DNA from: Leuctra nigra
Lineage: Eukaryota > Arthropoda > Insecta > Plecoptera > Leuctridae
Length of the DNA stretch: 64,000 bases
Assembly: GCA_934045905.1 (NCBI GenBank)
Contig: OW203768.1
Location: 12,304,316-12,368,315, forward strand
Direction: 5' to 3'
The position numbers were made by a program, and so were the translations under genes. Positions within the stretch are counted from its first letter, which is position 1. Each line of letters opens with the position of its first letter. Under the pieces are notes generated by a model that did not search any database, was not told the DNA's origin, and was given only the letters and a program-made list of their open reading frames with translations. Shown here piece after piece: positions 1-64,000 of this stretch.

Positions 1-567
1 TTTGACAAACAAAACGATATATATAAGAAAATATATTAGGTACATATATGTATAGAAGTAAATAATTAATTAAACTTAACAGAACTATTTATAGAAATTT
101 CTTATCTACAATTGTACCAACTTTCTTCACGAGAAAGAGTTGCAGTGAATTGCTTTGGTCCGCATAATGTTTTTGTGCTCTCAAATATGTTTCTGGACAG
201 GCCATGTATACCGAGAAGCTCTATTGATAGAGGGCTATAACTTAAAAGCATAATATTTTACATACTGTTAATTCAGGAGAAACACTCTAACGAAAGTCCC
301 AAAGATATTGGCCGCATTTGGGATAAGATCTAACCGATTAGCTCTAGAACAGCTCATTGCATCCTTAAGTAATCGAAACTCTTCTGTAGAAAAACACTAC
401 GTCTAAACAAAGCTGAGGGTGTGAGTCGGAAATCGGGAGGGTACCAGCTTACCTCGGGAACGGTTCACTGAAGGGGTTTGGAATGTCGAGCGATAATACT
501 GAGCAGGCGAGGCGAGTCAAGCGGGTTGGTATACATGGCGGTCGTCGCGACGGGGAGGAGGCGGAGC
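1..567 (-). other. ced-6: ced-6 3' untranslated region and downstream DNA
   Basis: This stretch follows the ced-6 stop codon (568-570 on the minus strand). It has no supported open reading frame on either strand. I did not find a convincing AATAAA at a sensible distance on the minus strand, so the 3' end of the transcript is not fixed and may lie outside the window. Confidence 0.5.
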
Positions 568-642
568 TTAGTTGCGCAGCGGATCGAGGCTCTCCAATGA
601 GAAGTCGTCGTTACCGATGGACAGACCTCTACTGAATCCAGC
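568..642 (-). CDS. ced-6: ced-6 last coding exon
   Basis: 75 bases including the TAA stop: [19 protein letters not shown], then DPLRN. The phase continues exactly from EMK of the previous exon. Acceptor TCTACAG. It resembles the conserved C-terminal block of Ced-6 (EMK-x-GFxxGL). Confidence 0.88.
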   Translation of the reverse strand, partial: AGFSRGLSIGNDDFSLESLDPLRN

Positions 643-9600: not shown

Positions 9601-12600
9601 GCATTTCGGCAATGGCTGTCACATAACTTTGATCTACACCACAATGATTTTTGGAAATGATTCTACCAACATACTTCACTTCTGGGATTCTGTATTGAAA
9701 CTTATCCTGATTGAATTTAACACCAACCTGCCTTGCTCGATTCAGCACTTCGGCAAGCGCTCGATCGTGGTCCTCCTCGGTTTCTCCACAAATAATCAAG
9801 TCGTCAAAGTAGACTTCTACTCCGTGGATGTCTCCAAACAGCTTCTCATTGGTCTTTTGGAAGACTTCGGGAGCGGAGCTAATGCCATACGGGAGTCGCT
9901 TGAAGCGGTACCTACCGAAAGGAGTTTGAAAAGTGCAAAGATCTGCACTAGCTTCAGTAAGTGGCAAATTCCAGAATCCTTGGCGCATATCTAGAACACT
10001 GAAGAGACATTTATTCCTCAATCTAGACAAAATATCATCTGAGGTAGGGATAGGGTGGTGTTCTCGTTTTATTGCCTTGTTCAAGGGTCTCGGGTCAAGG
10101 CAGATCCTCAAATCACCATTAGGTTTCTCAACAAGCAATAAACTATTAACCCAGTCAGTGGGTTTTTCAACCTTGTCAATGATAGAATCTCTTTCAAGAC
10201 TATCTAGAGTCTCTTTTAACTTCTTCTGTAAGCTATAGGGTACTCGTCGGGGTGGACTAATGACAGGTTCAGCATCATTCGTCAAAACTATCTCATGCTG
10301 TTTTCCTATTTTGCCTACTCCTGTGAACACATCCTTGAAGGCTTCTACAATATCAGTTTTAGTCTGCCTAGAGCTAACGGAGTTCACTCTCTTAATTAGG
10401 TTTAAATCAATACAAGCTTTCAATCCAAGCAAGGGAGTTGACACATCACATACATCAAATTCAACATTCTTAGCTTTCCCTTTACGCGTTATACATTTCA
10501 ATTTAATGCTACCTATGGGAGTGATTACTACTCCTAAGTCTCCAAAGGGGACTAACTTGTTCTTTGATTTCACCAAATTAAATGAACCTTTCAACGATTG
10601 AAATACTTTCTGGGGCAAGATACTGGTCTCGGCAGCAGTATCCAATTTACAGCGCACAGGATGAGAGCCAATGCTTATGGTTTCAAACCAGGCTGTTTGA
10701 GTTTTAGTTTTAGTATTACCTGACTTCTTACTCCCTACATTGAGAATGAGTCTGTATTCCCGATTCTGATTGTTTTCGTCCTCACTTTCAACATCATCAT
10801 CGTCACTCGATGCACTTGACGCTTCGACGTCATTGACGGATTTCTTCTTGTAACCCTTCTTCACTTTTTCACAACATTTCGCAAAATGATTCAAATCGCC
10901 GCACTTTGCACAATTCTTTCCATATGCAGGGCAACGACCTCGCTTGTGATCGTAACCACATTTCTTGCAGTCGTAAATCTTCTCGGACGTCTTCTCTTGA
11001 GTCTTCTCCTCGGACTTCTTCTTCGTGAAGAACTGCTTCGATTTCACAGCAGCTACCGTGGTCGATGTTCGATTCGATTGTTCGCCGTTGTTCGATTCAC
11101 GAACTTCTAGAGCTTTTGCTTTACCTTCCTGGTAAATTCGACACAGATTAGCAGCTTTACTAAGATTCAGATTCGTCTCACTTAGCAAACGCTCTTGCAG
11201 CTTACTGTCTGCAATACCTAGCACAATCCTGTCTCTAATCAAACTGTCCTCTTGTTGTTCAAACTCACATGATCTAGCAGCATTCTTTAGTTCTGTGAGG
11301 AATTGATCAAATGGCTGGGATTCTCTTTGTTTGATTCCAAAAAACTTGAACCGTTCGAAAACAACATTCTTTTGAGGTGTGCAATACTTTTCAAATTCAT
11401 CTAACACGGTTTTCAGCACATTTTTATCCTCTTCCTTTTCGAATTTAAAGGTGTTAAATGCAGTTAGGGCTTCATCACCAATAAAGCTTAACAAAATTGC
11501 TACTTGCGTGTCTTGTTTCTCTGCGTTGGCTTTGGTTGCTTTCATGTAAATCTCAAATTTCTGCCGCCAACGTCGCCATTCTTCACAGACGTTTCCATCC
11601 AGTTTGAGCTCGGCTGGTGGTTTGTGTGCTGATGACGCCATCTTGATTCTTGATTTTACACGGCCAAGACGAAATTTCTTTTCGTCTTTACTTACGCGAC
11701 AACTTCGGTTGTAGATGCTTACTTTTCATTCAGCACGCGTGGTACACTTCTGACACCATGTTGGATTGGTACTTATCACAATAAATGAACATAGACTATT
11801 GAGAAATAGTATTTATTGACAACACTCCTGACAAGTACAATCGTCATGCTTCGGCATGATGGCTGACAACTGGTGCGTCGTATGCAACACAGCTCGTGTA
11901 CTACACATAGATATAAGAAGTCAGTGGTGCCAACATTACATCTTTAACAGATGTTATGCAAAACAGAGTGGGCTGAAGAAAGTAATTTTTCAAGTGGGAA
12001 ATAGGGAAGTTTGGAATCGGTTGGATAAAGACGAGATAATGAAAGATTTTGAGGATTTGATGCAAGTCTCTACAACCTTTTTTGGTCCAAAGATAAAAAT
12101 AGGTATTGTGGGTTTACTAAGTAATTACTCAGTAACTTTGAATGAAGGGTTGAAGAAGATGGCGAAAGAGAAAGAGGTGGAATATATTGAATTGGAATAC
12201 ACACCAGGATTCTTGATGGATAGAAGGAAGTGGGCCCGAGAAGTTGGAAGAAAATTGAAAATGAGGGTTGAGGAGAAGGTTGTTATTAACAAGAAGAATG
12301 TTTGGACTCAGTCGAAGCGGGGTTTTCGGACAAGTTGGGTTTCAAGGATAATATTATAGGAAGGAGAATGATGAAGTATGTGAAGAAAAGCAAGACTAAT
12401 AGGGAAGGTGGAGGTTACAGATATAGAAGAAGAGAAGTTATAAGGATGGGAACAATAAATATTGTCACGTTAAATGGGAAAATAGAAGAAGTGATTGATG
12501 AAATGAAAGAGAGAAAGATGCATGTGTTGGGTTTGAGTGAAACAAAATGGAGAGGAGAAGGGTATAAAGAATTGAGAGATGGTTATTGTATATATTGGTG

Positions 12601-15600
12601 TGGTGATAAAGAATGTAAATTTGGAGTTGCAATTATACTGTGTCAAGAAATGAAAAGCAAGGTTGTGCAAGTAGAGTACATCAATGAGAGGTTAATTAAA
12701 TTGAAATTGTTTTTCGAAGAAATGTTAGTAGAAATTTTACAAGTTTATGCACCTCAAGTTGGAAGGAAAATGGCTGAAAAAGAAACTTTTCTTGAGCTTG
12801 TAGAAGAAAATATATCTCTTGAAAGTACATTTGTAATGGGTGACTTAAATGCAAAGGTTGGAAGAGAAAGAAGAGGATTTGAAAAGGTTTTGGGAAAAAA
12901 TGGATATGGATCCAGGAATAAGGAAGGAGAAAATTTGTTAGAAGTTTGTGCAAGAAATGGATTGGTGATTGGAAATAGTATGTTTGAGAAGAATGAAAAG
13001 AATATGATCACGAGGTATGGTTGGGATGGGAGATCGAAATCGGTAATTGATTATATAATATACAGTGACGCACTTAGAAAAATGGTATTGGATGTAAAGG
13101 TTGTACTGCATGTGGCATTTGATGGTGATCATCGACTATTAATAGCGGATATACGAATGCCAAGAAAATGTGTTGAAAGAAGAAAAGCGAAGAGAAGAAG
13201 AAAATTGAAGGTATGGAGATTGCAGAATGATGAAATAAGAAAAGAATTTAAAATGGCAATAGAAGAAAATATGCCAGTTGGGGATCTTAATTTGGTAGAA
13301 GAGGAATGGATGAGTTTTAAAAATGCTATATTGACTATTACAGAAAATATATGCGGGAGGACAAAGGGATTGAGAAGAAGAAAGGAAACACCGTGGTGGA
13401 CAAATGCAATTAAGTGTGCAGTAAGAAAGAAAAGAAAAGCATGGGTTAAAAAAGAAGAGTGCAGAACAATATTGAATATAAATAAATATCAAAGGATGAA
13501 GAGATATGTTCACTTTTTGGTTTCAGAAGAAAAATCGAAGACAATGAACGCATTTGTTGAATGTCTAGAGAGGGACTTTGAGGCAAACAAAAAGATGTTA
13601 TATTCTGTAGTAAAATGTAAGAGGCAAGATAATAGAACAACTAATTATATGGTAAATGAAAGGGGATGCCTTACAAATGATGTGGAGGAAATACAAGATA
13701 TGTGGAAGCACTACTTTTCAAAGTTATTGAATGATGACAAAGGTGGTACTGAAGACAAGGAAATAAGTGAAGAGTGCGATAAATTGAATTGTCAAGATGA
13801 TATGGTAATGTTTGGGGAAGTTGAGGTGGCAGTAAAAGGGATGAAAAATGGAAGATCGCCGGGAGTGGATGAGATAAGTGTGGAAATGATAAAGGCAGGT
13901 GGTAAAGCTGGATTGGAGTGGTTTTACAGAGTTGTGGCATCGGCATGGATTCAAAAAACTGTACCAAGGGATTGGAGGAGAGGTGTTATTGTACCATTGT
14001 TTAAGAAAGGGGATCGCAAGAAATGTAGCAACTATAGAGGGATAACACTCATGAGCCAAGGAGCGAAGATATACGAACGAATTATAGAGAAGAGGATACG
14101 AAGTGTAGTTGAAGAGGATTTGAAAGATGAACAATATGGATTTAGAAGAAACAGATCTACGATAGACCTTATATTCGCTATAAGGACCATTATGGAGAGA
14201 AATTGGGAGATGGGAAAGGAAATATGGTTAGTGTTTCTGGATATTGAAAAAGCGTATGATCATTTGCCAAGGGATAGGGTGTGGGAGAGTTTAGAAAAGA
14301 GGGAAATAGACAAGAAGTTGATTGAAAGAGTACAGAGTTTGTATGTTGGATGTGAGAGTTGTGTGGAAACAGTGGGAGGAAGAACGGGCTGGTTTAGTGT
14401 GAGATCAGGAGTAAGGCAAGGCAGTGTGTTGTCACCTTTGCTGTTCATTATGGTAATGGATGATATAATTCGGGAGGTGGAAAGGAATGAAGATCTAGAT
14501 TCGCAAACTGGGGTATATGCGGATGATGTTGTAATTTGGGGAGAGACTGAAGAGTTGGTACAGAAGAAAGTGGATGTGTGGAACGAAGTGATAAAAAGAT
14601 ATGGAATGAAGATTAGTAGTGAGAAGAGTGAATATTTGGTTTTGGAGAAGAAGAAAAATGGGCTTGTAAGAAATGGTTTGAAATTGGATGGAAAAGATAT
14701 TAAACAAGTAGAAGATTTTAGTTATCTAGGAAGTTTGGTTACAAAAGACGGAAAGTGTTCGAAAGAAGTTAAAAGAAGAATACAGAAAGCAGACGGGTTT
14801 TATCAAAAAGTTAGAAAATTAGTATGGAATAGGGATTTACCACTTAAATTTAAATTAGTATTATACAAGCAATATTTTTTACCGATATTATGTTATGGGG
14901 CGGTGACGTGGAATTTGGGATGGAAGGAGGAGAGTATGGTACAAGCAGAAGAGATGAAGTTCGTGAGAGGAATGGCAAATATATCGATGAAGGAACATGT
15001 AAGAAGTATGGTGATAAGGAAGAAGATGGGTGTGGAGAGTGTTGGGTTCAAAATTGGGCGAGAAAGACTGAGGTGGTTTGGTAAACTTAAGAGAATGAAA
15101 GACAGTAGAAGAGCCAAAAGTGAATTTGGAAAGTATGTGGAAGGTAAAAGAAAAGTTGGGAGGCCAAGAGATAGATGGATTGAACAGGTGAAAAGAGATG
15201 TTGAGGAACGAGGTGAAAGATGGGAAGAAGTTGAAAGGAAACATTTGTGGGAAAATCAAGAATTATGGGAACAAATAGTTACTAAAGTGGAGGTAGTAGA
15301 GGAGGATGAGGATGAAGAAGAAAAAGACGGAGGAGAAGAAGAAGAATAAGAAGAAGGAGAAGAAGAACAAGAAGAAAAAAGGAAGGAGGGGAGGAGGATG
15401 AGAAGGAAGACAAATGTGACAGGCCTGGCTAGCCGGCATTACTAAATGTATTTAGCCTATAAGAAATTTTTACTCTACCTAGTGTGGAATTAAGTGTTTA
15501 TAAATGTAAATAAATATGTGATAATAAAAAAAAAAAAAAATACAGATTCACAACCTCCTGGAGGGTTATTCTAAATTTCCGTGTCGTCTCGAGTGCTATC

Positions 15601-46604: not shown

Positions 46605-47456
46605 ATGGAACCCGCCGCCCTGAGTGACCCAAACAACTGGGAAGAAGTAGTCCGACAACAGCTGGAATGCCCCGTCTGCTTCTACCTGTTCACGTCCCCC
46701 ATCTACATGTGCCCACGAGGTCATAACGTCTGCCATGAATGTAGAGAGCAACTTCATCACTGTCCAGTATGTCGTCTACACGGTGTCCCGTCAAATCGCA
46801 ACATCGCTCTCGAAGCCCTCAGTGAACACTTGTTTAATGTCCCTTGCAAGGATCAACCCAACAGGAGAGACATCGAAGATAGTCATACCACTTCCTTGGA
46901 TTATCATAAATGCCTCCTGTGTGGTTTTGTAGAAAGCCTACCGAAACTGTTACAGCATATTAAATGTCATCCAAGAAATGCAAATAAGAAACTCGGTCAT
47001 GAAATGGTCATCACTGACAACTGTGGTACGTATCCGTATGTTTTCCAATGTAGAACTGACAAGGAGTGTTTCTGGGTGATCTATAAATACAGTCCTGAGA
47101 CGATGGAGTTTTACTTCTACATGCGACACAACGGCGCGAAAGAAGAGGCTGGATTGTTCACGGTCACATGGAGCATATCTTCCGGGAAGGAGGAGATTCA
47201 TCTCACCAAACCACCGTTGCACTTATACGAGAAGTTCGTTGAAAGTGATTATGTGATAGTCCTGCCAAGGAGGTTTTGTTACTTCCCTACGGGAGAATGG
47301 AATCTGAAAGTAAAGTTCTTCTTGAAGCAAAATGCGCCCAGCAAACCAGGGAAAGATATGCAGTGTGGTGAAGCAGCTGTGAATATCATTCCGTGGAAAT
47401 TGATCAAATTGATTGCATGTTGTTGTATTATAAACATGATTTCTAAAATAAATTGA
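46605..47456 (+). CDS. SIAH/SINA-like RING E3 ubiquitin ligase
   Basis: 283 codons in one exon. SIAH-type ligases hand ubiquitin from an E2 to bound substrates in the cytosol and nucleus. RING ligands are all present: C22, C25, C36, H40, C43, C46, C53, C56 (LECPVCFYLF, PRGHNVCHEC, HHCPVCR). A Cys/His finger follows (C103, C106, H118, C121 or H122); the usual first SIAH finger is poorly kept. Residues about 135-255 fit the substrate-binding beta sandwich (GHEMVI, GTYPYVFQC, GEWNLKVKFF). The tail LIACCCIINMISK is Cys-rich and unusual. Length equals human SIAH1 (282). I start at 46605 because a CAG acceptor with a pyrimidine tract ends at 46599, so the in-frame ATG at 46581 is probably intronic. 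AATAAA overlaps the stop codon. Could be a retrocopy; no frame damage is visible. Confidence 0.85.
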   Translation: MEPAALSDPNNWEEVVRQQLECPVCFYLFTSPIYMCPRGHNVCHECREQLHHCPVCRLHGVPSNRNIALEALSEHLFNVPCKDQPNRRDIEDSHTTSLDYHKCLLCGFVESLPKLLQHIKCHPRNANKKLGHEMVITDNCGTYPYVFQCRTDKECFWVIYKYSPETMEFYFYMRHNGAKEEAGLFTVTWSISSGKEEIHLTKPPLHLYEKFVESDYVIVLPRRFCYFPTGEWNLKVKFFLKQNAPSKPGKDMQCGEAAVNIIPWKLIKLIACCCIINMISKIN

Positions 47457-50601: not shown

Positions 50602-50730
50602 ATTCCATTGTAAATCATCAGTTGATACGTCCCTTGTGGGTCATATTCCACTGAAAATCATCAGTTGATACGCCCCTTGTGGGTCATATTCCACTGATAA
50701 TCATCAGTTGATACGACCCTTGTGGGTCAT
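50602..50730 (-). repeat. Three 43-bp tandem units over the ZP gene stop codon
   Basis: Units 50602-50644, 50645-50687 and 50688-50730. On the minus strand each reads ATGACCCACAAGGG...ATCAACTGATGA. The first transcribed unit supplies the last residues (MTHKGRIN) and the stop; the other two fall in the 3' untranslated region. Confidence 0.9.
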
Positions 50731-50864
50731 GAAACTCTTGTGGTCGAACCGAGCTTGCGGGTTATCAACTTCAGGCGCCATCTTGCATCGAGTTATACGT
50801 TTCATGCGGTAACACATGACGACCAGACAGAGTGATAATACTGATAACATCAAGCCGCCGAGAC
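50704..50864 (-). CDS. ZP gene last coding exon: membrane helix and tail
   Basis: 161 bases to the TGA at 50704-50706. Acceptor CTTGTCCTAG at 50866-50865. GT completes the Gly begun in the previous exon. It encodes a 20-residue hydrophobic helix ending CYRMKR (stop-transfer), then RCKMAPEVDNPQARFDHKSF and the array-encoded end. It was found by searching for the missing membrane anchor. Confidence 0.85.
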
Positions 50865-53800
50865 CTAGGACAAGAGACACGAGGATTATTGTAGAACAGA
50901 AGTGGAATGCTTACACACGAGTGCTGCAAGCGCGAGCGATTTTGCTGCTTTTTGTAGACACTTTTTGCGATACGATTGCAGACGAAATGGGTAGACCAAA
51001 TTATTTGAAATTTTAACCGTGATTAGATAAAAGACAAACTTAGGGTTATCCCTTGGTACATTTTTAATTTTTTGTTTCGTAATGAGTAATAATTAGTGGA
51101 TTTTTGGGGGAAAATTAGCAATTTTCTTGTCTCCCTGGGCGCCGTATAAAATTTAATTTAAAAAATGTGCCAAGTGATAACCCTAAGTTTGTCTTTCATC
51201 TAATCATGATTAAAATTTTAGATCAATTGGTTAACGAGTTTGGTCTCCAATCGTATCGCAAATTTCATATTAACTAATTAACATATTAGTTAATTTCTAA
51301 TTAACGATGCAATAAGTAAAAAGTAAAAAGTGATTCTAATATACGATAAGACTGATCATGTGAACATCCTGTAAAAGTTACACTTACTTATGAACCAATT
51401 TTTCTCTCTTAATTTTCTAAAACAGCTGAGCGATAGTATCACCTTAATTGTTTATAAATCTTTAGATGTAAATCTAGCCATCATAAGACGACAAACAAAT
51501 CAGGGGTGGATCCAAGGAGGGGCGGAAGGGGCGATCGCCCCCCCCCCCCATGATTCCTCCTCCACCTTCTATTAAGATCAGCAGGTTGATTTTTCATTTC
51601 GTCAAATTTACAAAAATATCGTAATCATGGCTTGTTTATTGGCAAGGATTAATCTTTGCTCTAAAAGTGCATTAAAACTAAATGTTTTCTTCAATATTTT
51701 CAAAAAAAATTTGCCAGAAAAGATAGGCCTTTGGCGGCTGAGAGCATGGGCGTCCACAGGGGTGACTGGGGGGCAAGGATGTAAGAATAGCATAAAAATT
51801 TTGTGGTGTTTTTGGTGGTCAAACCAAAAAAATACCCTGCGAGGCAAGGTGGGAGCACTCCTAACGTCTCAAATTTTGATTTCAAAGTGTCCAAAAACCA
51901 AAAACCGCCCTGCAGGGCAGTGTGGGGGGCTCGCCCCCCACACCCCCCTTAGCCCGTGGGACAATTGTTTTCCTTGCATTACTCCCACCCCCTGGCAAAA
52001 AAATCTGCGGACGCCCGTGGCTGGGGATAGGTACCCCTAGACCCCCTTCATATTTTCCAAAATCGCTCCCTCCATGACGAGTGGCTAGATCCGCCCCTGA
52101 AACAAATCAATCAAATTCTCACCGAAGAGCGCCGTGAACGCCCCCGTCTTGATGCACACACTGTTGGCGTCCAGGATGTGACGCGTGGTGGTGTTGGTGT
52201 CGTCCAGGATCTCTCCCTCCTGCAGGACTCTCAGTGACTGGAAGAGGTTGATGTTCTCCGACTGACGGTCCACCAGCTTGGGAGTTGCTGTGGAGTTGCT
52301 TCCGACAGACCGCTTGCTCACTGTCTTGGCGTTCCTCCAGTGACAAGGTTGACTCTGTAATACAAGACATTCAGTTCAGTGACTGGAAGAGGTTGATGTT
52401 CTCCGACTGACGGTCCACCAGCTTGGGAGTTGCTGTGGAGTTGCTTCCGATAGACCGCTTGCTCACTGTCTTGGCGTTCCTCCAGTGACAAGGTTGACTC
52501 TGTAATACAAGACATTCAGTTCAGTGACTGGAAGAGGTTGATGTTCTCCGACTGACGGTCCACCAGCTTGGGAGTTGCGGTGGAGTTGCTTCCGATAGAC
52601 CGCTTGCTCACTGTCTTCGCGTTCCTCCAGTGACAAGGTTGACTTTGTAATACAAGACATTCAGTTCAGTGACTGGAAGAGGTTGATGTTCTCCGACTGA
52701 CGGTCCACCAGCTTGGGAGTTGCTGTGGAGTTGCTTCCGACAGACCGCTTGCTCACTGTCTTGGCGTTCCTCCAGTGACAAGGTTGACTCTGTAATACAA
52801 GACATTCAGTTCAGTGACTGGAAGAGGTTGATGTTCTCCGACTGACGGTCCACCAGCTTGGGAGTTGCTGTGGAGTTGCTTCCGACAGACCGCTTGCTCA
52901 CTGTCTTGGCGTTCCTCCAGTGACAAGGTTGACTCTGTAATACAAGACATTCAGTTCAGTGACTGGAAGAGGTTGATGTTCTCCGACTGACGGTCCACCA
53001 GCTTGGGAGTTGCTGTTGAGTTGCTTCCGATAGACCGCTTGCTCACTGGCTTGGCGTTCCTCCAGTGACAAGGTTGACTCTGTAATACAAGACATTCAGT
53101 TCAGTGACTGGAAGAGGTTGATGTTCTCCGACTGACGGTCCACCAGCTTGGGAGTTGCTGTGGAGTTGCTTCCGATAGACCGCTTGCTCACTGTCTTCGC
53201 GTTCCTCCAGTGACAAGGTTGACTCTGTAATACAAGACATTTAGTTCAGTGACTGGAAGAGGTTGATGTTCTCCGACTGACGGTCCACCAGCTTGGGAGT
53301 TGCTGTGGAGTTGCTTCCGATAGACCGCTTGCTCACTGTCTTGGCGTTCCTCCAGTGACAAGGTTGACTCTGTAATACAAGACATTCAGTTCAGTGACTG
53401 GAAGAGGTTGATGTTCTCCGACTGACGGTCCACCAGCTTGGGAGTTGCTATTGAGTTGCTTCCGACAGACCGCTTGCTCACTGTCTTGGCGTTCCTCCAG
53501 TGACAAGGTTGACTCAGTAATACAAGACATTCAGTTCAGTGACTGGAAGAGGTTAATGTTCTCCGACTGACGGTCCACCAGCTTGGGAGTTGCTGTGGAG
53601 TTGCTTCCGACAGACCGCTTGCTCACTGTCTTGGCGTTCCTCCAGTGACAAGGTTGACTCTGTAATACAAGACACATCCTTTTCAGAACCAACGGCGTCA
53701 TTCTCGACAATTATTTTTAAAAAATGTTGTTTAATTAGTGTTTCATGACTGTTCATCCTCTATAAAGTGTCCGAATGACCATTTTATCGTTCTAATTTTC

Positions 53801-56800
53801 GTTCTTATTTTGATATTGCAGCGAGGTTATGAAGATTTATTTTTATCACGTGATATAGATAAGAGAAACTAACTACTCTTCATAAATTTCGGTTACTGGT
53901 TAATTTTATGTTTCATCAAACTTGCTGACAGCAATTATTATCCAAGAGTTGTACAAACACCTTGATCAACAGAAAAGAGTATGCTTCAAGACCTAAAGGA
54001 AGGGCCATGTAAATGCTAGTTCTTAGTTGGAGGAGAAGGACTGATCAGGTATTGTTCAATGATTGTTGCAATTTTTCATAATTATGTGCGTCTCTCTACG
54101 TTTATCTCTCTTATATCTACGTCATTTTGTGGACTAATGCACTTTCTCAAACACGCTATTCAATTTCGTACAGTATAGTTCGATGCACTCTGTTTTTGTG
54201 AAGTATGGGCCCTCACCAACAAGTTGAGTACAATACGTTTCTGTCCTCATGTAGTAGACTCTATCCTTGCATCTGATGAACCGATGTCAACCTATCTCAC
54301 CAATAGACTGCTACCTTGACGCAGTGGTGGGGCTTAAGGGGCCGCCTCACATTACGAGTTGGTCCCAACTAAGTGCAGTCCAGGGTCGACCTAGTCCCAT
54401 GCCCTCTCCAAATTCGCGGGCCACTCGGGCCGGCCTTCCTCCTAGAGATGGTTATCCTCCTGAAATCGGGTTCCACCGGCCCGAAGCCTCTCAATCTCAA
54501 CTGGCTTTCCCACCAGTTTTAGACTCCCCCGGATCGGGCCCGTTAGGTCGACCCCTCCCCATGTGCTCCACTTATGATTAACAAAGTTAAAAGTAAAAAT
54601 TATTGTGCTCATAACCTCGTCGTTGACGCGCTGTTATACCATGATAATCTATTCTGACATGTGGACCTACCGGACATCTGCCGTGGCACATGCGCACGTC
54701 GCACTCGATGTACAAGGCCGGTGACCCCGTGAACCTGAACGTCTTCATGTAGGCGAACACTTGTGTCTCGAACACTCCAGACTCGCTCCAGGAGCCACGG
54801 AATCTGCTGATCAGCTTGTCGTCCACAGGGCAGCTGGAGACAAGGGAGAAGAGTCTCAAAATACAGATGTGCTTTATTTCTTCAATACTTAGAATTGATT
54901 GAGGATCCAACCAATCGAAAAGCCGAAATCAATAGGATGCCGACATTAGGCCTGGCAGTACAGTTAAATTGTGTTGGACTATAACTTACTTTTGGATTCA
55001 AGTCAACTGTCTTTGTAATTTTGAAGTATCTGATTGACTGAAATTAACTCACCCATAAGCATCGATCAATTGGATTTTCTTTGTCGCTCCGTTGTGTGCG
55101 TAACAGTCGTTCACCACGATGTCGAAACCGTCTGCAAAATGTTTGAGTTTAAATAAAATTTAAATTCAATACTATGTATAAGAAAGGAACTGAAATAAGT
55201 GAAGATATCCATTAGAAAGGACACACCCCGACCCGATTTTAAAGCATTTTAGAGATGAGAGAAGCTGTGAAAATAGTATATAAACCATGGTATAAAGCAA
55301 CTTGGCTTCCACAATCAACATATACACTAGGCCAAAGTAAAAACGATATTTGAACGAAATGGATTGGCTGCTAATCAGGTTCATTTATAATCAATCCTTG
55401 TTATTATCAACGAAATCAGAGCTCACCTACCAGACCACCCCCCAAAATACCAGAATACCGTTTTAACTTTGGCCAAGTGTACGTACGTTACGTACACTTT
55501 CAAAACAAATGCAGTTCCTCTTTAGAACCAGCTGTCACATCTATATTATTGATATTATAAGTATTATTCTCACCGTATTTGCTTCTCATGTAAATGAGCA
55601 GTGTTAGCGGATCACCGACCCGCACCGGCCCGCCTACACGGTTGCCATTCGTGCCGTATCCGTGCCGTATCTCCATGTAGCATTCAGGAGGCGAGAGTGT
55701 AAACACCACTGGGTTGCCCGTGGCAACCCTGCAACACGATCACAACAAGATGGCGGTCAGGACATGCCATGGCATTATAGCTTCTTATTTTAATGTAACA
55801 AATTGAAAACCCGGCCCTAAAGTTTATAAGGACGAAATAACAAACTGAATGTACTGACGTTAGAATATATTAATCAAGTTTTGTAGGTTTGTTGATAGGC
55901 CTCCTCATATTTTCGTATATTATTTACTAGAGATTGATATCAGCGTGGAAAAGTATTAGAGGATAATCTTGTTGCCACTTTTAAATATTTAGCAAAGTTG
56001 CAGGAAAGACTAGAGATTGCAGAGCCATAAGTGGAAAGTAGGACACTCTGGCACAAAATACCTGCAAATAATTATTCCGTATCAAATAAAAATATGCTCA
56101 CATAAAGACTACAGTCGAAACATTTTTAAGAGCAGCGCAGTAGAAAAATTTATTTGAATACCTAAATTTGAATTTGTTTACTCTAATGTTAAAGTCCATA
56201 ACAACGGCTGCTACTGTCTTAAATTTTAAGATAAGAGAGTGAAAATGCGTGCAGGAATCACCCCCCCCCCCCCTGTTTAAATGAAAGTAATATATTCTTT
56301 GACCATGGTGGTTCTAGTTTTGACTTACTCTACGTCGAGAAAGGGGAACGTGACGGTCTTCCAGAAGTCGTAGCCGTACTCGCAGGTGACCTTGAAGTGT
56401 TCGTCCCACTCCTCCTCGATCAGAGGGTTGTATTGAACAGTCACTGTGTTCCACATGAAGTTCTTCTGCAGTGACAACAAGTACAAACATGTCAAGACAG
56501 CTTATTTATCAAGTTCAGAAGCTCTAAATAGAGATCTTTTAATTTCAAACTGTTAGGCACTACCTGTACACACATGTAACTAGGATATAATTTGATTTTG
56601 GGACTTATTCTGTTCGAAAAGTGTGGTAATGAAATAAATATATCAAATATTGATATGAAAATGTTAGAAGAATGTATTAACAACTTTTTATCGTCAACGA
56701 AAGTCGATTGACATAATTTACATGATTTCAGTAGAATGTGTGTCACTCTAGCACAAAATTTAACGAAGGTATCAGAATATATATCAATAGGAAATATTAT

Positions 56801-59800
56801 CTGTGTCAGTTTTATCACCGAAAAGGAGAATTAAATACATAAAAAGGCATCAATTCACGGTACATGGGTTCGTTTGTATAAAGTTTACAAGTGGAATGCT
56901 GGTTACTCAGATATAATTTTCATTACAGGGTAGTTGCATCACCTTGGTTCCTAGGTAACAGACCTCAATCTTGTTTGATGTCCTGGGGAACAAGCAATTT
57001 TTTAAAAGCTTCATCATATTTTAAATAGAGTTGTGAAAGAAAAAGATTAAAAAATAAATACGTAAATGGTACGTATATCATATAAAACATGGAAATTAAA
57101 TCAAGTTAGATTTTGGTCAGCAGTGACGTTGCAATTTCCCTATTTAAAGTAGTACCATCGATAGTCCACGTAATTCAAGTCAGTGACTTACAAATTAAAT
57201 TAGAAATCAATGAAAAAAATATTTTACAACTATATTTTGCATTGTTGATGAATATCATAAGATTACTTTGTAGAAATACGATATTTTATAAAGAATTTAC
57301 AATTATTTTAATTAATTTCATGCAGTATGCATTAAGTACTTGATTCGATTTTAAGCACTTTCTAGTAGAAACTGGCTAAATAAGGGTATTATTCTTGAAT
57401 ATCTCTTTATTTAATCCCGTACCCCCACATTTTTAAACGGCTAAAATATTGAAAAAAAATCGGCCTTTAAAATGAAATCAATATTTTTACTTTGTAGTTT
57501 CTATTACGATTTCTACAGAAGATATAAGTATAATTTTGAAGCTTCCCCATGTTATCTTATGGGAAATTTCAAGATTTCCTTTTAAGATATCTCTTAAATT
57601 AATCCCGTGACACATGTTTTTCTTTTCGTATTTGCAAATGGTATTGCTTGAGGCATATTTGAGGAAAATTTGAAGCATTTCTATTTAACAAGGACTTTTG
57701 ATGGAAGTACTTTAAGTAGAATGTGTGTAACTCCAACACAAATCTAATGAATTAAGTAGAATGTATAATGTGAGTAACTCGAGGAGCACAAATCTAAGCG
57801 ATGTAAGTAGAATGTGAGTAACTCTAGCAGCACAAATCTAAGCGATGTAAGTAGAATGTGAGTAACTCTAACACAAATTTAAGAAATGAAGTGGAATGTG
57901 AGTAACCCCGGCACATTACCGTCGGATTCTTCCTGCTGTCCTCGTTGTGTGTGTTCTTCCCGAGAGTCCCGCATCGGTTCAACTGGATGAAGAACTCGTA
58001 GTAGTCGCGTCCCGTGCCGTTGATGTAGACGCAGTCGGGGTCGTAAGCGTAGCCGCTGGAGTAGAGGAGGCCGCCGAACGATCCGTTGAAGCCGACGCGG
58101 ATCTTCATGTAGTCGTCCTGACACTCCGCCTCGATGTCTGTGGGGAGGACATGAGAGAAATTAAAAACATGAGAAGGAAAGGTTTTTAAGATGGGAGTTG
58201 ATTCTCCCCCCGGTCCGAACCCTCTCGCCTCCGGCTCGCCCCCATTCCGGTCTGATCCCACCATTGACGGACCCCCATGGACCGGTGCCTTCTGCGTTGA
58301 CTCTTTCACATAACCTCACTTATTATGAAAAAGATTGAAAAAATTAATTTCGGGAAATTACCTAGCTCACCAATATACACCTATACTGATAATACTAATT
58401 CTTTCGCCGTATACGATATCAGAAATTGCATATCAGCGGTCGCGTGTATAGTTATTTCCTCATTGGTTGAAAAGTTAAAGTAACCCGTTAGTCCGATCAA
58501 GTTCAAATGTTGTATCGTAATTGGTACCAACATTGGATCAAAGTTCAAAAATTTTCAAACGTATATGGTCAAGAAGTTGAAAATCGAACAACATTTTAGC
58601 TTATTTTGAAGGATTAGTCAAATTTGTTTCATCAAAAAGGAAGTACGGACCGCACCTTTCATCAATGATTAGGTTTGCGTTTACTCTGCTTCCAAGGAGT
58701 CTATAGAGCAACAACTTTTCTAATGAATGAGACTGCTTACGACACTTAAACAGAGCGCATTCCTAGATGCATTGAAATTCACTGAGAATGATATTTTGAG
58801 ACTAGTTTTGTTGAAATCTGAATAAAGTGCGTGCTCCTCGCTTCCACCTCCCGCTGTTTCTGCTCGACTGGGAATTGCAGTTCGATGCGCATGCGCTGAT
58901 AACTCATCGACAGAACAAAGGCAGACAAAGTGCGAAACATAAGCGTCGATTTCGTAACTTCGAACACCACGCGGAGATAAAGAAGTGTGAATAGAATCCA
59001 GCCCGGATGATTTACTAGGCATTGTTACTTAAATAGTGGAGTGGATAGAGTAAATGTTGAATTTTACATGATTTAAATTTGAATTGCCAACGTTTCAAAA
59101 AACAAATAGGAATTCAAGAAAATAAGGAACACGACTGACCTCTGGTGGATTCTTTGGTACTAGACATAGGGATGATCAGGGAGGACATCAGGGGGATATT
59201 TATATAAATAAATTATATTAAATTTGCTTTAGTTGTTTGTTATGGCTGAAAAAGTAAACTTGTAACTAAATTTAAATTTCAGTTGTTTCTCCTTTTTCAC
59301 CCTACGGAAAAACGAACTTCAAAATAAAAAAGTGAATCTAAAAAGTTTCCTGCCAGAAGTGGATCCATCACGTATCGCTTATTTGTTCGAATAATTTCGT
59401 CATTAAAACCTTAGAAAACTGACCAAAATATAAATGTATTTTTTAAATTGATACATAAAACTACTTGTTACGAATGTTAACTGATTTACTCTTTTCAAAA
59501 TAACGCTTTTTCCTAATTATTTAAAACATATTTTTATTATTTTCATGGTTAGTCATAATGTCAGGAAGAAGCGTCCTTCTCCACAATGTGTTCATAATAC
59601 AAGAACATAATTTATTGAACCACGAGAAAAGAGACATTTTTTAGAATCCTTTTTAGAATCCACAGAAAAAGGCTCAATTACTGGGATATTTTATAATTCC
59701 GCAGAAAGTCAAAGGTAACATGATGGGTTTACTTGAGAGTGGACTTCTCAATAACTTATAACAGCAACAACGCATATGTAGCCTCTTTGTGTGTATTCTA

Positions 59801-62056
59801 ATTCTCCCTTTCTACAGAAACTACAATAACCATGTTGCATTCATATTATATCAATATAATTACATAATGAAGTAAACAATTAATTTAATTCAATTATGCT
59901 GAATTATTCCACTTTTCTATTGATAAAATGTCTATGTAAATATGTTGTTTTTTAACAAAACATTTAACATTGAGGATGTGAAACTGAATTAAACCACCCA
60001 CGTAGTAAATCCCCCTCCCACCTCCACTTCGATCGAAAACCCACGAAAACATTTCGCAATCGAACAACCAAAACCCATGTAACTTCCTTCCTGCTCTGAA
60101 GAACTGGGTCATTAATCTGGCTCCTCGATCAGTAGCATTCACTGAGATGTTAATTAGACAATTAACCATCACTTTCACTCGGCGTGCGTCTTGCGAGGGG
60201 CAGGCGGCGCCCAACACTTTCCCCCTGGCGCCACGCCTGGCAGAGCGCGATGAGAGGGACGATTTGTAACGATTAGTTGATAAGAAATAAGATTAATCTA
60301 TTTTTACATTGAAAATACATGTATTTAGTTTTTCAATACTATTTAAAACAATAGTCAAGTTTAAACAGTCATTTAAGGAATGTTATCGGTGGTTGCCATG
60401 GCAATATACTCCTAATCAACTGTTTAAAATTTAGCACAGTATTCAAACAAAAAAGCGATACGTGATGGATCCACTTCTGGCAGGAAACTTTTTAGATGCA
60501 CTTTTTTATTTTGAAGTTTGTGTTTCCATAGGGCAGTGAAAAAGGAGAAACAATTGAGTTTAAATTTAGTTACAAGTTTACTTTTTCAGCCATAACAAAC
60601 AACTAAAGCAAATTTATTATAATTTATGTATATAAATATCCCCGTGATATCCTCCATTATCCCCCTTATGGCTAGTACCAAAGAATCCACCAGAGGTCAG
60701 GTGTTCCTTATTTTCTCGAATTGAAAAACTGGCCCTATAGATCAGTTTTTCAAGTCTCTGATAAAACCAGTATTTAAGTTTAAATAGTTATTCGAGGAAA
60801 ACCAGGCCATTGGTTGTTAACTCGGCAATGTAGTCCTAATCAACTGTTCATTATTTAGCGGAGTAGTGAAAAACTGACCCTAAAAAGACAATTCTGAAAT
60901 AGATAAATATAACAGCATCCGAATTGTTTTAGTACAGAAGCTTGGAGGTAGAAGCTGTAGAGACTGGAGAAAAAGAAGTAGAGAGGAAGAGCCTAAAGAG
61001 GAAGAGGCTGTAAAGGAAGAGATTAAGATTGTGCTTCAAGATTAGACCAACCTACAATCTGTATCAATTGAATTTATAGGCATAGGATTTATTTGTTGGG
61101 AAGTGTAACAACATTTAAGTTGTCAAAAAAGCTTGACCAATCGAGACTATGAGCATTAAAGTGGACTTTTGAATTGTAAAATTACATCCCAAGAAATGTA
61201 TATCTTCTGTGGATTCTTTTTGGGAAAGTAATGCAGAAAGTTCTACTTGAACTTTTGTAAATACGCATGCAACTGTTTGAATTTCTTAGTGCATAACGGA
61301 TGAAGATGAATTAACATTGAATGAATTAAAGACTTGACGTGATCTGCCAAATGTACATTTCCTCTGTCGGATTAACTTGAGGATTCTGTGTCCCTCTTCT
61401 CTAGATGAACCACGTGATATCAGCATGATGACGTCATAGGATGTCTCACTCAAGCCAGCATCATGACAAGTGCATTGTTAAACATTGCACACCCCGACAG
61501 TAATTCTCTTAATATCATTATCTTTTAAACCATTCAAAATATTCATAACGAGAAAAGTAGTTTCTTTCTATACGGAACTATTTCAGAAGCAAACACATTT
61601 TATGGCCTCGACGCATGGGTGAAAGAATAGACTTGAGAGCATTTTCGTGATTTAAAGTCACTTTCTTTAGAAACAACTAATATTTTCTGTAGTTTCTGTA
61701 TCAAGAGGTAGAAGGGCGGTAGTCAATTTTCTATATTTTTCGTTGCATACTTTTGAAATGATACTGGCCCTTCTATCTTTGAGGTACAGAATGATTAAAA
61801 AGTTATGACGCTATTTAGAAAATATTCACTTCAGCTTCGGGGTGCAGTACTATGTGACTGGGCCTTGTATGTAGGAGTAAGTCAGAGGTCCCGAAGGATA
61901 CTTACGATGCACTCTGGAAGAGTTGTTCCTGTATCGCGTGTAGTCCCTGTCCCAAGTCTCCTGGACAGCGTACCTGTCGTCGTGCCCGCTAGAGGGTCTG
62001 ATGGGCCGGGGAGCTCGCACGGGCACGTACCTCGTTCCGTCTGCCAGAAACTCCAC
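50704..62056 (-). CDS. ZP-domain transmembrane protein, last eight exons
   Basis: Apical extracellular-matrix protein with a zona pellucida domain, membrane-anchored and probably released by a protease. Exons: 61906-62056, 57920-58137, 56329-56465, 55574-55728, 55053-55131, 54671-54833, 52123-52354 and 50704-50864; 1296 bases, 431 codons plus stop. All phases agree. Residues about 52-345 of this part are the ZP domain with its paired Cys (AECQDD, PDCVYI, NRCGTL, VTCEYGY, PECYME, NDCYAH, GCPVDD, ECDVRMCHGRCP, QPCHW). A dibasic SKR/SV site follows, then a spacer, a helix (LGLGGLMLSVLSLCLVVMCYR, split at its start by an intron) and a 30-residue tail. It recalls the trynity/neyo/nyobe group of insect ZP proteins, from memory; N-terminal exons, perhaps with PAN domains, would lie to the right of the window. 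The acceptors of two exons have been tandemly amplified. Confidence 0.9.
50956..51267. repeat. Fold-back element, arms about 100 bp
   Basis: Inverted arms include gcgatacgattg, tagataaaagacaaacttag and ggttatccc..ggtacattttt on the left, with complements at 51157-51263. It sits in the last ZP intron. No coding capacity. Confidence 0.75.
51501..52099. mobile_element. 599-bp hAT-like MITE with 8-bp duplication AAACAAAT
   Basis: Ends CAGGGGTGGATCCA and the complement of CAGGGGCGGATCTAGCCA, flanked by AAACAAAT at 51493-51500 and 52100-52107. The 8-bp duplication and CAGGGG ends point to hAT. Its right end lies only about 24 bp from the ZP exon donor (52122-52121). A second element is nested inside (51745-52019). 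Confidence 0.85.
51745..52019. mobile_element. Nested CATGGGCG-type MITE
   Basis: Ends CATGGGCGTCCACAGG and TGCGGACGCCCGTG, the same family as 29068-29448, sharing aagtgtccaaaaaccaaaaa. Flanks gctgagag and gctgggga may be a decayed 8-bp duplication. Confidence 0.65.
52123..52354 (-). CDS. ZP gene exon: end of ZP module, cleavage site, linker
   Basis: 232 bases: SQPCHWRNAKTVSKRSVGSN..., ending VCIKTGAFTALF plus one base. Phase 0 after RCP of the previous exon. Its acceptor TGTATTACAG is the last of ten near-identical acceptors; the exon's first 121 bases are the repeated part, and only here does the reading continue as SLRVLQEGE. Confidence 0.88.
52233..53673 (-). repeat. 145-bp tandem array, ten acceptor-plus-exon units
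   Basis: Each unit on the minus strand holds a ttgtattacag acceptor and 121 bases of exon (SQPCHW...NLFQSL), then 24 bases of pre-acceptor intron. Acceptor-adjacent exon starts are at 52354, 52499, 52644, 52789, 52934, 53079, 53224, 53369, 53514 and 53659. Units differ at scattered single bases. In every unit but the last, the exon frame runs into TGA right after NLFQSLN. Confidence 0.93.
53700..54266. other. ZP gene intron
   Basis: AT-rich; nothing recognised. Confidence 0.5.
54280..54580 (+). other. GC-rich patch in ZP intron, possible retroposon scrap
   Basis: Isolated GC-rich stretch (tgacgcagtggtggggctta, gggccactcgggccggcctt) with an open plus-strand frame but no domain. A smaller GC-rich stretch of similar flavour lies at 58195-58300. 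It looks like decayed transposon sequence. Confidence 0.35.
54671..54833 (-). CDS. ZP gene exon: ZP-C region
   Basis: 163 bases: one base completing Gly, then CPVDDKLISRFRG...FRFTGSPALYIECDVRMCHG RCP. This is the most conserved ZP-C block. Acceptor CTCCAG, donor CCG|GTAGGT. Confidence 0.92.
55053..55131 (-). CDS. ZP gene exon, 79 bases
   Basis: Encodes GFDIVVNDCYAHNGATKKIQ and LIDAY, with split codons at both ends (Asp and Gly) that join correctly to the neighbours. Too short for an ORF scan. Confidence 0.9.
55132..55573. other. ZP intron with a GTACACTTGGCCAAA MITE
   Basis: The MITE spans about 55323-55481 (tacactaggccaaagtaaaa ... ctttggccaagtgta) and shares ggattggctgctaatcagg with the 21277 copy. 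The rest is AT-rich. Confidence 0.65.
55574..55728 (-). CDS. ZP gene exon
   Basis: 155 bases: VATGNPVVFTLSPPECYMEI ... DPLTLLIYMRSKY, linking ZP-N to ZP-C. Acceptor GTTGCAG, donor TACG|GTGAGA. Confidence 0.92.
55729..56328. other. ZP intron
   Basis: AT-rich; a C run at 56262-56273 and nothing else recognised. Confidence 0.5.
56329..56465 (-). CDS. ZP gene exon (ZP-N), NAGNAG acceptor
   Basis: 137 bases: (K)NFMWNTVTVQYNPLIEEE ... FWKTVTFPFLDV, ending GA. The acceptor reads CTGCAGAAG|AAC, so splicing can start at 56465 (with the Lys) or 56462 (without). Confidence 0.92.
56466..57713. other. ZP intron
   Basis: AT-rich; one stray copy of the ~50-bp unit (agtagaatgtgtgtcactct) at 56729-56765. 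No gene. Confidence 0.5.
57714..57915. repeat. ~40-50-bp tandem repeat beside the ZP donor
   Basis: Five variable units, each starting ag(t)agaatgtgagtaactc and followed by agcacaaatctaagcgatgt. The array ends within a few bases of the exon donor at 57919-57918. Confidence 0.85.
57920..58137 (-). CDS. ZP gene exon: start of ZP domain
   Basis: 218 bases: two bases completing His, then IEAECQDDYMKIRVGFNGSF, GLLYSSGYAYDPDCVYINGT, ending SRKNPT. Acceptor CCCCACAG, donor ACG|GTAATG. Confidence 0.92.
58138..59110. other. ZP intron
   Basis: A GC-rich scrap at 58195-58300; otherwise AT-rich. No gene. Confidence 0.45.
59111..60722. mobile_element. 1.6-kb element with 270-bp inverted ends
   Basis: Arms 59111-59380 and 60453-60722 are inverted copies with modest divergence (gacctctggtggattctttg, gttatggctgaaaaagtaaa, ggatccatcacgtatcgctt). 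The interior of about 1.07 kb has no transposase; its largest frame has no domain I know. An AGGGCCAG MITE (about 60327-60449) abuts the right arm. Confidence 0.8.
60740..60882. repeat. AGGGCCAG-type MITE
   Basis: Starts near gatcagtttttcaagtctct and ends aaaaactgaccct, with the core ccattggttgtta. It directly follows the large fold-back element. Confidence 0.55.
60883..61905. other. ZP intron
   Basis: AT-rich; nothing recognised. Confidence 0.45.
61906..62056 (-). CDS. ZP gene exon upstream of ZP domain
   Basis: 151 bases, phase 0 at start, one base over at the end: VEFLADGTRYVPVRAPRPIR, PSSGHDDRYAVQETWDRD, YTRYRNNSSRVH. Donor CATC|GTAAGT. The acceptor CGGACAG is preceded by a good branch-point match (CTCACTAAC) 24 bases upstream. 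Its first 82 bases are the unit repeated upstream. Confidence 0.82.
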
Positions 62057-63790
62057 CTGTCCGTACCGGAACGCAAGGTTAGTGAGCACATAAGTCTGTC
62101 ATCGTGCCCGCTAGAGGGTCTAATGGGCCGGGGAGCTCGCACGGGCACGTACCTCGTTCCGTCTGCCAGAAACTCCACCTGTCCGTACCGGAACACAAGG
62201 TTAGTGAGCACATAAGTCTGTCATCGTGCCCGCTAGAGGGTCTGATGGGCCGGGGAGCTCGCACGGGCACGTACCTCGTTCCGTCTGCCAGAAACTCCAC
62301 CTGTCCGTACCGGAACGCAAGGTTAGTGAGCACATAAGTCTGTCATCGTGCCCGCTAGAGGGTCTGATGGGCCGGGGAGCTCGCACGGGCACGTACCTCG
62401 TTCCGTCTGCCAGAAACTCCACCTGCCCGTACCGGAACGCAAGGTTAGTGAGTACATAAGTCTGTCATCGTGCCCGCTAGAGGGTCTGATGGGCCGGGGA
62501 GCTCGCACGGGCACGTACCTCGTTCCGTCTGCCAGGAACTCCACCTGTCCGTACCGGAACGCAAAGTTAGTGTGTACATAAGTCTGTCTTCGTGCCCGCT
62601 AGAGGGTCTGATGGGCCGGGGAGCTCGCACGGGCACGGTCCTCGTTCCGTCTGCCAGAAACTTCACCTGTCCGTACCGGAACGGAAGGTTAGTGAGAACA
62701 TAAGTCTGTCATCGTGCCCGCTAGAGGGTCTGATGGGCCGGGGAGCTCGCACGGGCACGTACCTCGTGCCGTCTGCCAGGAACTCCACCTGTCCGTACCG
62801 GAACACAAGGTTAGTGAGTACATAAGTCTGTCATCGTGCCCGCTAGAGGGTCTGATGGGCCGGGGAGCTCGCACGGGCACGTACCTCGTGCCGTCTGCCA
62901 GGAACTCCACCTGTCCGTACTGGAACACAAGGTTAGTGAGTACATAAGTCTGTCATCGTGCCCGCTAGAGGGTCTGATGGGCCGGGGAGCTCGCACGGGC
63001 GCGTACCTCGTGCCATCTGCCAGAATCTCCACCTGTCCGTACCGGAACGCAAAGTTAGTGTGTACATAAGTCTGTCATCGTGCCCGCTAGAGGGTCTGAT
63101 GGGCCGGGGAGCTCGCACGGGCACGTACCTCGTTCCGTCTGCCAGGAACTCCACCTGTCCGTACCGGAACGCAAGGTTAGTGAGTACATAAGTCTGTCAT
63201 CGTGCCCGCTAGAGGGTCTGATGGGCCGGGGAGCTCGCACGGGCACGTACCTCGTTCCGTCTGCCAGGAACTCCACCTGTCCGTACCGGAACACAAGGTT
63301 AGTGAGCACATAAGTCTGTCATCGTGTCCGCTAGAGGGTCTGATGGGCCGGGGAGCTCGCACTGGCACGTACCTCGTTCCGTCTGCCAGAAACTCCACCT
63401 GTCCGTACCGGAACGCAAGGTTAGTGAGTACATAAGTCTGTCATCGCGTCCGCTAGAGGGTCTGATGGGCCGGGGAGCTCGCACGGGCACGTACCTCGTT
63501 CCGTCTGCCAGAAACTCCACCTGTCCGTACCAGAACGCAAGGTTAGTGTGTACATAAGTCTGTCTTCGTGCCCGCTAGAGGGTCTGATGGGCCGGGGAGC
63601 TCGCACGGGCACGTACCTCGTTCCGTCTGCCAGAAACTCCACCTGTCCGTACCGGAACGCAAGGTTAGTGAGTACATAAGTCTGTCATCGTGCCCGCTAG
63701 ATGGTCTGATGGGGCACGGGCACGTACCTCGTGCCGTCTGCCAGGAACTCCACCTGTCCGTACCGGAACGCAAGGTTAGTGAGTACATAA
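61970..63790 (-). repeat. 122-bp tandem array, fifteen acceptor-plus-exon units
   Basis: Units begin (plus strand cgtgcccgctagagggtc) near 61979, then every 122 bp to about 63687; the last is 13 bp short. On the minus strand each has a CTCACTAAC branch site (CACACTAAC in a few), a CAG|GTGGAG acceptor, then 82 bases of exon (VEFLADGTRY...SGHDDR). Only the 61979 unit goes on into the rest of the exon. A GAG|GTACGT donor-like site lies 26 bases into nearly all units. 122 is not a multiple of three, so read-through shifts frame at each unit. Confidence 0.93.
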
Positions 63791-64000
63791 GCAGTAACCT
63801 ACTATACCGACATGTGATGGGATGTGAACTTCCTATCCTGACCATTCGAAAGCAATTCATAAGCGTGAATTGGTGGGAATTTACTAACTTTATTAAATTT
63901 CAAGCGTTGTTCTGAAAATGAACTTCACATTAATTATGCTTATTCTAGTCAAATAAATTGTTAAATATTGATTAACTAACAGAGTGTTAGACATTTTAGT
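63791..64000. other. ZP intron, window edge
   Basis: AT-rich sequence upstream of the array. The next ZP exon must lie beyond the window. Confidence 0.5.

Follow-up and report, generated by a model that had tools for sequence, protein, structure and literature searches.

Exon-edge minisatellites in a ZP domain gene and in P450 genes of the plecopteran Leuctra nigra

The question raised by this locus is why a single gene should hold two large tandem arrays, each covering a 3' splice site and the start of the exon that follows it. The original prediction saw in them a new acceptor-specific system, produced either by a process acting on acceptor and exon-start DNA or by selection on splicing. 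We analysed the window, i.e., the whole stretch of 64,000 nucleotides, within the genome to which it belongs (536 Mb in 144 contigs). The gene encodes a cuticle-type ZP domain protein, and its recovered part spans 62056 to 50704 of the minus strand. The window also holds a LINE-like element on the plus strand (12290-15349), whose 1019-residue frame has a reverse transcriptase domain and matches endonucleases weakly; a minus-strand frame of 1347 residues (7682-11725) that by eye resembles a Ty3/gypsy-type polyprotein; and a plus-strand frame, apparently of a single exon, with a Sina/SIAH-type RING finger (46608-47456). The minus-strand frame at 6209-6499 and those adjoining it are, by eye, what we take to be ced-6/GULP-like, and a Pfam search with one of them matched nothing.

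We recovered eight exons of the ZP gene, A to H (Table 1). All its internal exon edges have GT and AG ends and matching phases, giving a partial protein of 431 residues. Pfam identifies in this protein ZP-C (5e-12), CUT_N and ZP-N above the cut-offs, and CUT_C below its cut-off; a PDB sequence search with it matched nothing. We accepted the edges of exons A and G on the basis of splice signals, phase and homologues. The 5'-most exon or exons lie outside the window, and a comparison of the 20 kb past it with ZP homologues gave no convincing match for an upstream signal-peptide exon. Exon G contains a KR that by eye we presume to be a furin-like site, exon H has a hydrophobic stretch that looks transmembrane-like by eye, and THKGRIN is the C-terminal end in seven of eight aligned homologues. 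The protein search returned 308 relatives; the 120 listed are 64-81% identical, and all those with a species name are insects. In a tree of 37 rows, the protein lies inside an unresolved fork of 21 rows that gathers Orthoptera, Blattodea, Phasmatodea, lice, mayflies with a damselfly, and Hemiptera, the nearest by path being Anabrus and Timema. The host is an insect, with its nearest homologues in Orthoptera, Phasmatodea and Blattodea, and lies outside the cephalochordates, which are the reported host range of the arrays called mirages discussed below.

Table 1. Exons and arrays of the ZP gene (positions in the window) and coding-derived arrays of P450 loci (positions in each locus).
Feature	Position	Strand	Unit and copies	Description
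Exon A	61906..62056	-		151 bp; runs on from the most downstream unit of array 1; donor gtaagt; reading VEFLADGTRYVPV..., aligned to single-copy homologues
Exon B	57920..58137	-		Start of ZP-N/CUT_N domain
Exon C	56329..56465	-
Exon D	55574..55728	-
Exon E	55053..55131	-
Exon F	54671..54833	-		ZP-C domain ends here
Exon G	52123..52354	-		232 bp; runs on from the last unit of array 2; reading SQPCHWRNAKTVSKRS...
Exon H	50704..50864	-		C-terminus FMTHKGRIN, stop TGA
Array 1	61974..63791	-	122 bp x 15.0	TRF score 3258
Array 2	52231..53674	-	145 bp x 10.0	TRF score 2776
Stop-codon array	50602..50730	-	43 bp x 3	MTHKGRIN* in every copy
Intronic array	57714..57915	-	~44 bp x about 4-5	Intron after exon B
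L036	268-714		75 bp x 6	Across stop codon
L040	56-489		149 bp x 2.9	Across stop codon
L051	1465-1721		62 bp x 4.1	Across stop codon
L059 (L070+L066+L059, G000:C2:15662975-15665586)	offset ~437 to 1170		91 bp x 8.1	Across donor
L060			37 bp x 3.6	Across donor; degenerate
L056	571-768		45 bp x 4.3	Internal to CDS (P450 exon), in frame

The two large arrays are conspicuous in the TRF analysis, where the top score among 20 Markov shuffles of the window is 63. The unit of array 1 consists of 40 bases of intron end, with an ACTAAC motif and the acceptor, followed by the first 82 bases of exon A. That of array 2 has 24 intron-end bases with the acceptor and the first 121 bases of exon G. The number and size of the units and the length of their exon parts are those originally predicted, and so is the distance of about 10 kb between the two exons, since the acceptors are 9.7 kb apart. 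The outermost unit of array 1 has 109 bases instead of 122 (it lacks the first 2 bases and 11 bases of the exon part), which leaves 14 full-length units. Mean identity between units is 95.9% in array 1 (units 2-15) and 97.2% in array 2 (10 units), and units that are not neighbours share variants. In array 2, units 6, 7 and 10 are identical, and the functional copy is one of these three. A branch site and an acceptor had been announced for the units of both arrays. This is correct for array 1, where all 14 full units have the branch-like ACTAAC and an intact acceptor AG (also present, by eye, in unit 1), in the AG/GT context CAG/GTGG. It is only partly so for array 2, where the acceptor AG is intact in 8 of the 10 units and lost in the other two, and where no branch site is clear by eye within the 24 intron bases of each unit. 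The observation that only the copy farthest downstream runs on into a full exon is true of both arrays but uninformative, because the geometry of any acceptor-spanning array imposes it.

Two shorter arrays of the gene had been said to touch the stop codon and a donor. The former does, with its first copy alone in the CDS and the rest past the stop codon. The latter does not: it is intronic, begins at base 5 of the intron (base 1 is 57919), and includes neither exon nor donor GT. We examined 120 of the 308 homologues: segment A is matched by 107 of them and segment G by 119, and in none of the 120 is either segment present twice. Within the limits of these proteins, the two large arrays therefore probably originated in this lineage. 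A genome search with exon G and one unit of array 2, which scores the best candidates only (here one stretch), gave 10 matches, all within array 2, and showed no second haplotype of it. We rejected an origin of array 2 from a mobile element or a paralogue, since the matches among the best candidates scored are confined to the array itself. A frame read through the acceptor in array 1 (LTNLAFRYGQVEF) was also rejected: the eight aligned homologues are unrelated to it before VVFVADG.

We then predicted the products that the upstream acceptors would give. In array 2, all 9 acceptor positions upstream would lead to the same product of 343 residues (compared with 431 in the partial protein), which ends in ...NLFQSLN* at a stop formed by the unit junction and retains the ZP domain but not the hydrophobic stretch towards the C-terminus. 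The predictions for the 13 upstream acceptors of array 1 that were properly assessed (the outermost one, with the deletion, being left out) range from 41 to 101 residues counted from exon A. Among all acceptors properly assessed, the last one is alone in leaving the reading frame of the gene open. The exon that it defines is also the shortest, with 151 bp at array 1 and 232 bp at array 2; with the next acceptor upstream the exon would be at least 273 and at least 377 bp long. Judging from the sequence, the extra copies are probably removed by splicing, and the acceptor closest to the donor is probably preferred through exon definition. The predicted selection on splicing is not borne out, because the upstream acceptors of both arrays, where properly assessed, would truncate the protein, and two of the 10 acceptors in array 2 are broken.

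To put the arrays in their genomic context, we searched 18 evenly spaced stretches of 10 kb (17 of contig C1 and one of C4) for arrays with a period of at least 30 and a score of at least 150. We found 11 arrays in 5 of the 18 stretches, 9 of them with a score of at least 500. Their units have a mean G+C of 0.47, against 0.38 in the flanks, and exceed the flanks in 8 of the 11 cases. Given this density, the presence of two large arrays within 64 kb is not exceptional for this genome; where they sit is. The spaced stretches also contain two very long minisatellites, of 35 bp x 45 (L006, 1-1584) and 21 bp x 156 (L007, 1373-4647). The filter excludes the latter, as it does other arrays with shorter periods or lower scores, e.g., 29 bp x 4.9 (L023).

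We searched the same genome for P450 genes, which gave 98 matches, and analysed 40 of the matching loci together with flanks of 700 bp (80.7 kb in total). Coding-derived arrays are present in 6 of the 40 (three at stop codons, two at donors and one in frame inside the CDS), in a sample that is not random: the first 20 loci are matches listed without inner stops, and all belong to one family with clustered paralogues. Stretches L066 to L070 were fetched once the arrays were known and are counted outside the 40. TRF arrays with a score of at least 150 occur in L029, L036, L040, L051, L056 and L059, i.e., in 6 of the 40 loci; that of L060 is weaker (126), and that of L029 lies beyond the P450 stop codon and appears non-coding. 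Small TRF hits are also present in L028, L031 and L049. Each of the six pieces compared with Pfam matches P450, the L040-type tail doing so at 22.2 bits, just under the cut-off of 22.8.

In the three arrays at P450 stop codons (L036, L040 and L051), the first copy alone is in the CDS and the extra copies lie past the stop. The copy number of the L040 unit differs between close paralogues of the cluster on C3, being one in L067 and 2.9 in L040 and L068. These three loci have the same first stop (GIKPRT*) and C-terminus, and this tail was not seen in L069, the fourth stretch inspected. In L059 the unit extends from the final bases of the exon (LYPSVPFIMRTIEEDTPCG) across the donor into the beginning of the intron, and only its first copy is joined to the exon body. 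It is the mirror image of the acceptor arrays of the ZP gene. The other donor array, that of L060, is degenerate: its four copies all carry a donor-like GTGA, and the first copy includes 17 exon bases. The repeat inside the CDS of L056 (KKLTSNINGNVNGLD) adds residues to the encoded protein. No acceptor-spanning array besides those of the ZP gene was recognised among the 40 loci.

This makes nine coding-derived arrays, three in the ZP gene and six in P450 loci, of which eight are at edges and one is internal. Only one of the eight edge units (122, 145, 43, 75, 149, 62, 91 and 37 bp) is a multiple of 3 (75 bp), whereas the sole internal unit (45 bp, L056) is one. Even if the numbers are small, this is the pattern that survival under CDS selection predicts. 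Of the process proposed for acceptor and exon-start DNA, what stands is a recurrent DNA process; its specificity for acceptors does not, given the arrays at stop codons, at donors and in frame inside a CDS, nor does the idea of a new system in one gene.

The variants in the exon parts of the units lean towards synonymous changes. In the six sets that we pooled (ZP A, ZP G, ZP stop, L036, L040/L068 with L067, and L059, leaving out L051, L056 and L060), 18 of 35 are non-synonymous when 25.7 are expected (P 0.0045), a result to which we give little weight, since the variants are not independent events and the idea arose after seeing the data. For L036 we assigned the expected fraction manually (0.74). 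Arrays 1 and 2 of the ZP gene alone give 10 of 21 (P 0.016). These few and non-independent variants hint that variation passes through a translated copy. Exchange with the functional copy would explain the lean, as would translation of some of the copies.

In summary, we consider it quite likely that these arrays are exon-edge minisatellites of the mirage kind, made by a common, G+C-biased process and surviving where the copies are dropped. The starting point would be a genome that, as the spaced stretches indicate, is rich in minisatellites, mostly with more G+C than their flanks, and in which exons form G+C-rich islands. A short tandem duplication would happen to cover an exon edge and would then grow by unequal exchange or replication slippage. 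Arrays would persist at the positions where we observe them when the mature message omits the extra copies: the copy used would be the last one at an acceptor and the first one at a donor or a stop codon, and an array inside the CDS would have to keep the frame with its unit. Units and functional copy might in addition exchange sequence. Three observations count against this explanation. The synonymous lean is one, because untranslated copies need not show it. A second is the lack of any further recognised acceptor-spanning array in the 40 P450 loci. The third is that both large ZP arrays are on acceptors and none on a donor, which has a chance of 0.5% under uniform placement, or of 2.8-3.7% if only G+C-rich positions are used, when one unit of each size is placed within the ZP gene, a gene picked after the fact. 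A wider reading, which we regard as rather unlikely, is that a sizeable share of genes has minisatellites at acceptors, donors and stops (edge arrays were 5 among the 40 P450 loci sampled). The dropped copies would exchange with the functional exon, thereby forming a private template store for one exon end. New introns could be built from them as well, as could a membrane-free isoform in the case of the ZP gene.

Three other explanations deserve consideration. The arrays could be a selected splicing device, in which some tissue uses the upstream acceptors of array 2 to make a soluble ZP protein that ends before the transmembrane stretch. The identical product from all 9 positions, with its complete ZP domain, and the synonymous lean of the exon-unit variants would fit such a device. 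However, the same stop would follow from any duplication of the segment, 2 of 10 units have lost the acceptor AG, the products of upstream splicing in array 1 would be short and truncated, and the P450 stop-codon and donor arrays show the same habit without such a product, which makes the device improbable. We find equally little reason to favour a mutational process directed at acceptors, in which, e.g., R-loops or DNA made from spliced RNA would duplicate acceptor and exon-start DNA. Its appeal is that two unrelated acceptors of one gene are affected, at the low probability given by uniform placement. Yet this probability rises once G+C is allowed for, the same genome has donor, stop-codon and internal arrays as well as many arrays in the spaced stretches, and the array 2 unit matched only within its array, so no mobile source is seen. 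Finally, expansion from one or two copies during assembly is very improbable: tandem copy numbers are often wrong in assemblies, and an amphioxus array is described as aberrantly assembled in the available text of PMC3087553, but scattered variants distinguish the units, comparable arrays occur in several independent genes on several contigs, and 144 contigs for 536 Mb suggest long reads, one of which would span an array of less than 2 kb.

Among the matches listed in a search of the open-access literature, no title or start of abstract pointed to boundary arrays in insects, and we make no claim to a first case in an insect. Arthropod studies (PMC6286909, PMC7536079 and PMC3152781) reportedly deal with tandem repeats inside coding sequence or genome-wide. 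The original prediction knew of no named system of this sort, but mirages have been described in PMC3087553 and PMC3902484, and the two ZP arrays have their layout. According to the available parts of PMC3087553, mirages are minisatellite-like duplications of intron/exon boundaries in the amphioxus genes BflGb6 and BflGb9 (globins) and Adh3, with units of 10-160 bp and data that suggest undisturbed regular splicing. BflGb6 has an acceptor layout like that of the ZP arrays, at 150-160 bp, and the array of BflGb9 duplicates the 3' boundary of an exon. The ZP arrays resemble them in having units that cross the intron/exon boundary (40+82 and 24+121 bases), whose lengths fall within that range, and that are homogenised within each array. 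They differ in that the amphioxus arrays have a cephalochordate host and fewer copies, that haplotypes and RT-PCR were studied there, and that these parts of the paper mention no stop-codon arrays. In lancelet PGBD5, the available text of PMC3902484 reports 60-bp and 108-bp repeats at two exons; as in the ZP gene, there are two different splice-site arrays in one gene, taken as harmless to splicing, although the repeats are imperfect and have 2-7 copies depending on the assembly.

Other known cases are more distant. Human internal tandem repeats at exon-intron boundaries, counted in PMC2812944, were detected by comparing paralogues and have, in the part of that paper available, a mean unit of 30 bp and 4 copies. 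Intron gain through tandem duplication of AG/GT proto-splice sites, as presented in the accessible text of PMC2891723, shares with our arrays a tandem duplication that copies splice signals, but there one duplication makes an intron, whereas the ZP copies sit in an existing one. What seems new is an insect genome that commonly makes arrays of this kind, including at stop codons and donors. The arrays offer natural material on how the spliceosome picks among 10-15 near-identical acceptors and on whether introns come from such arrays. The rule that they suggest, namely that coding DNA can be freely amplified wherever the additional copies have no effect on the mature message, is a simple, countable prediction for long-read genomes. 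The ZP and P450 arrays extend mirages from amphioxus to an insect and bring stop-codon arrays under the same rule.
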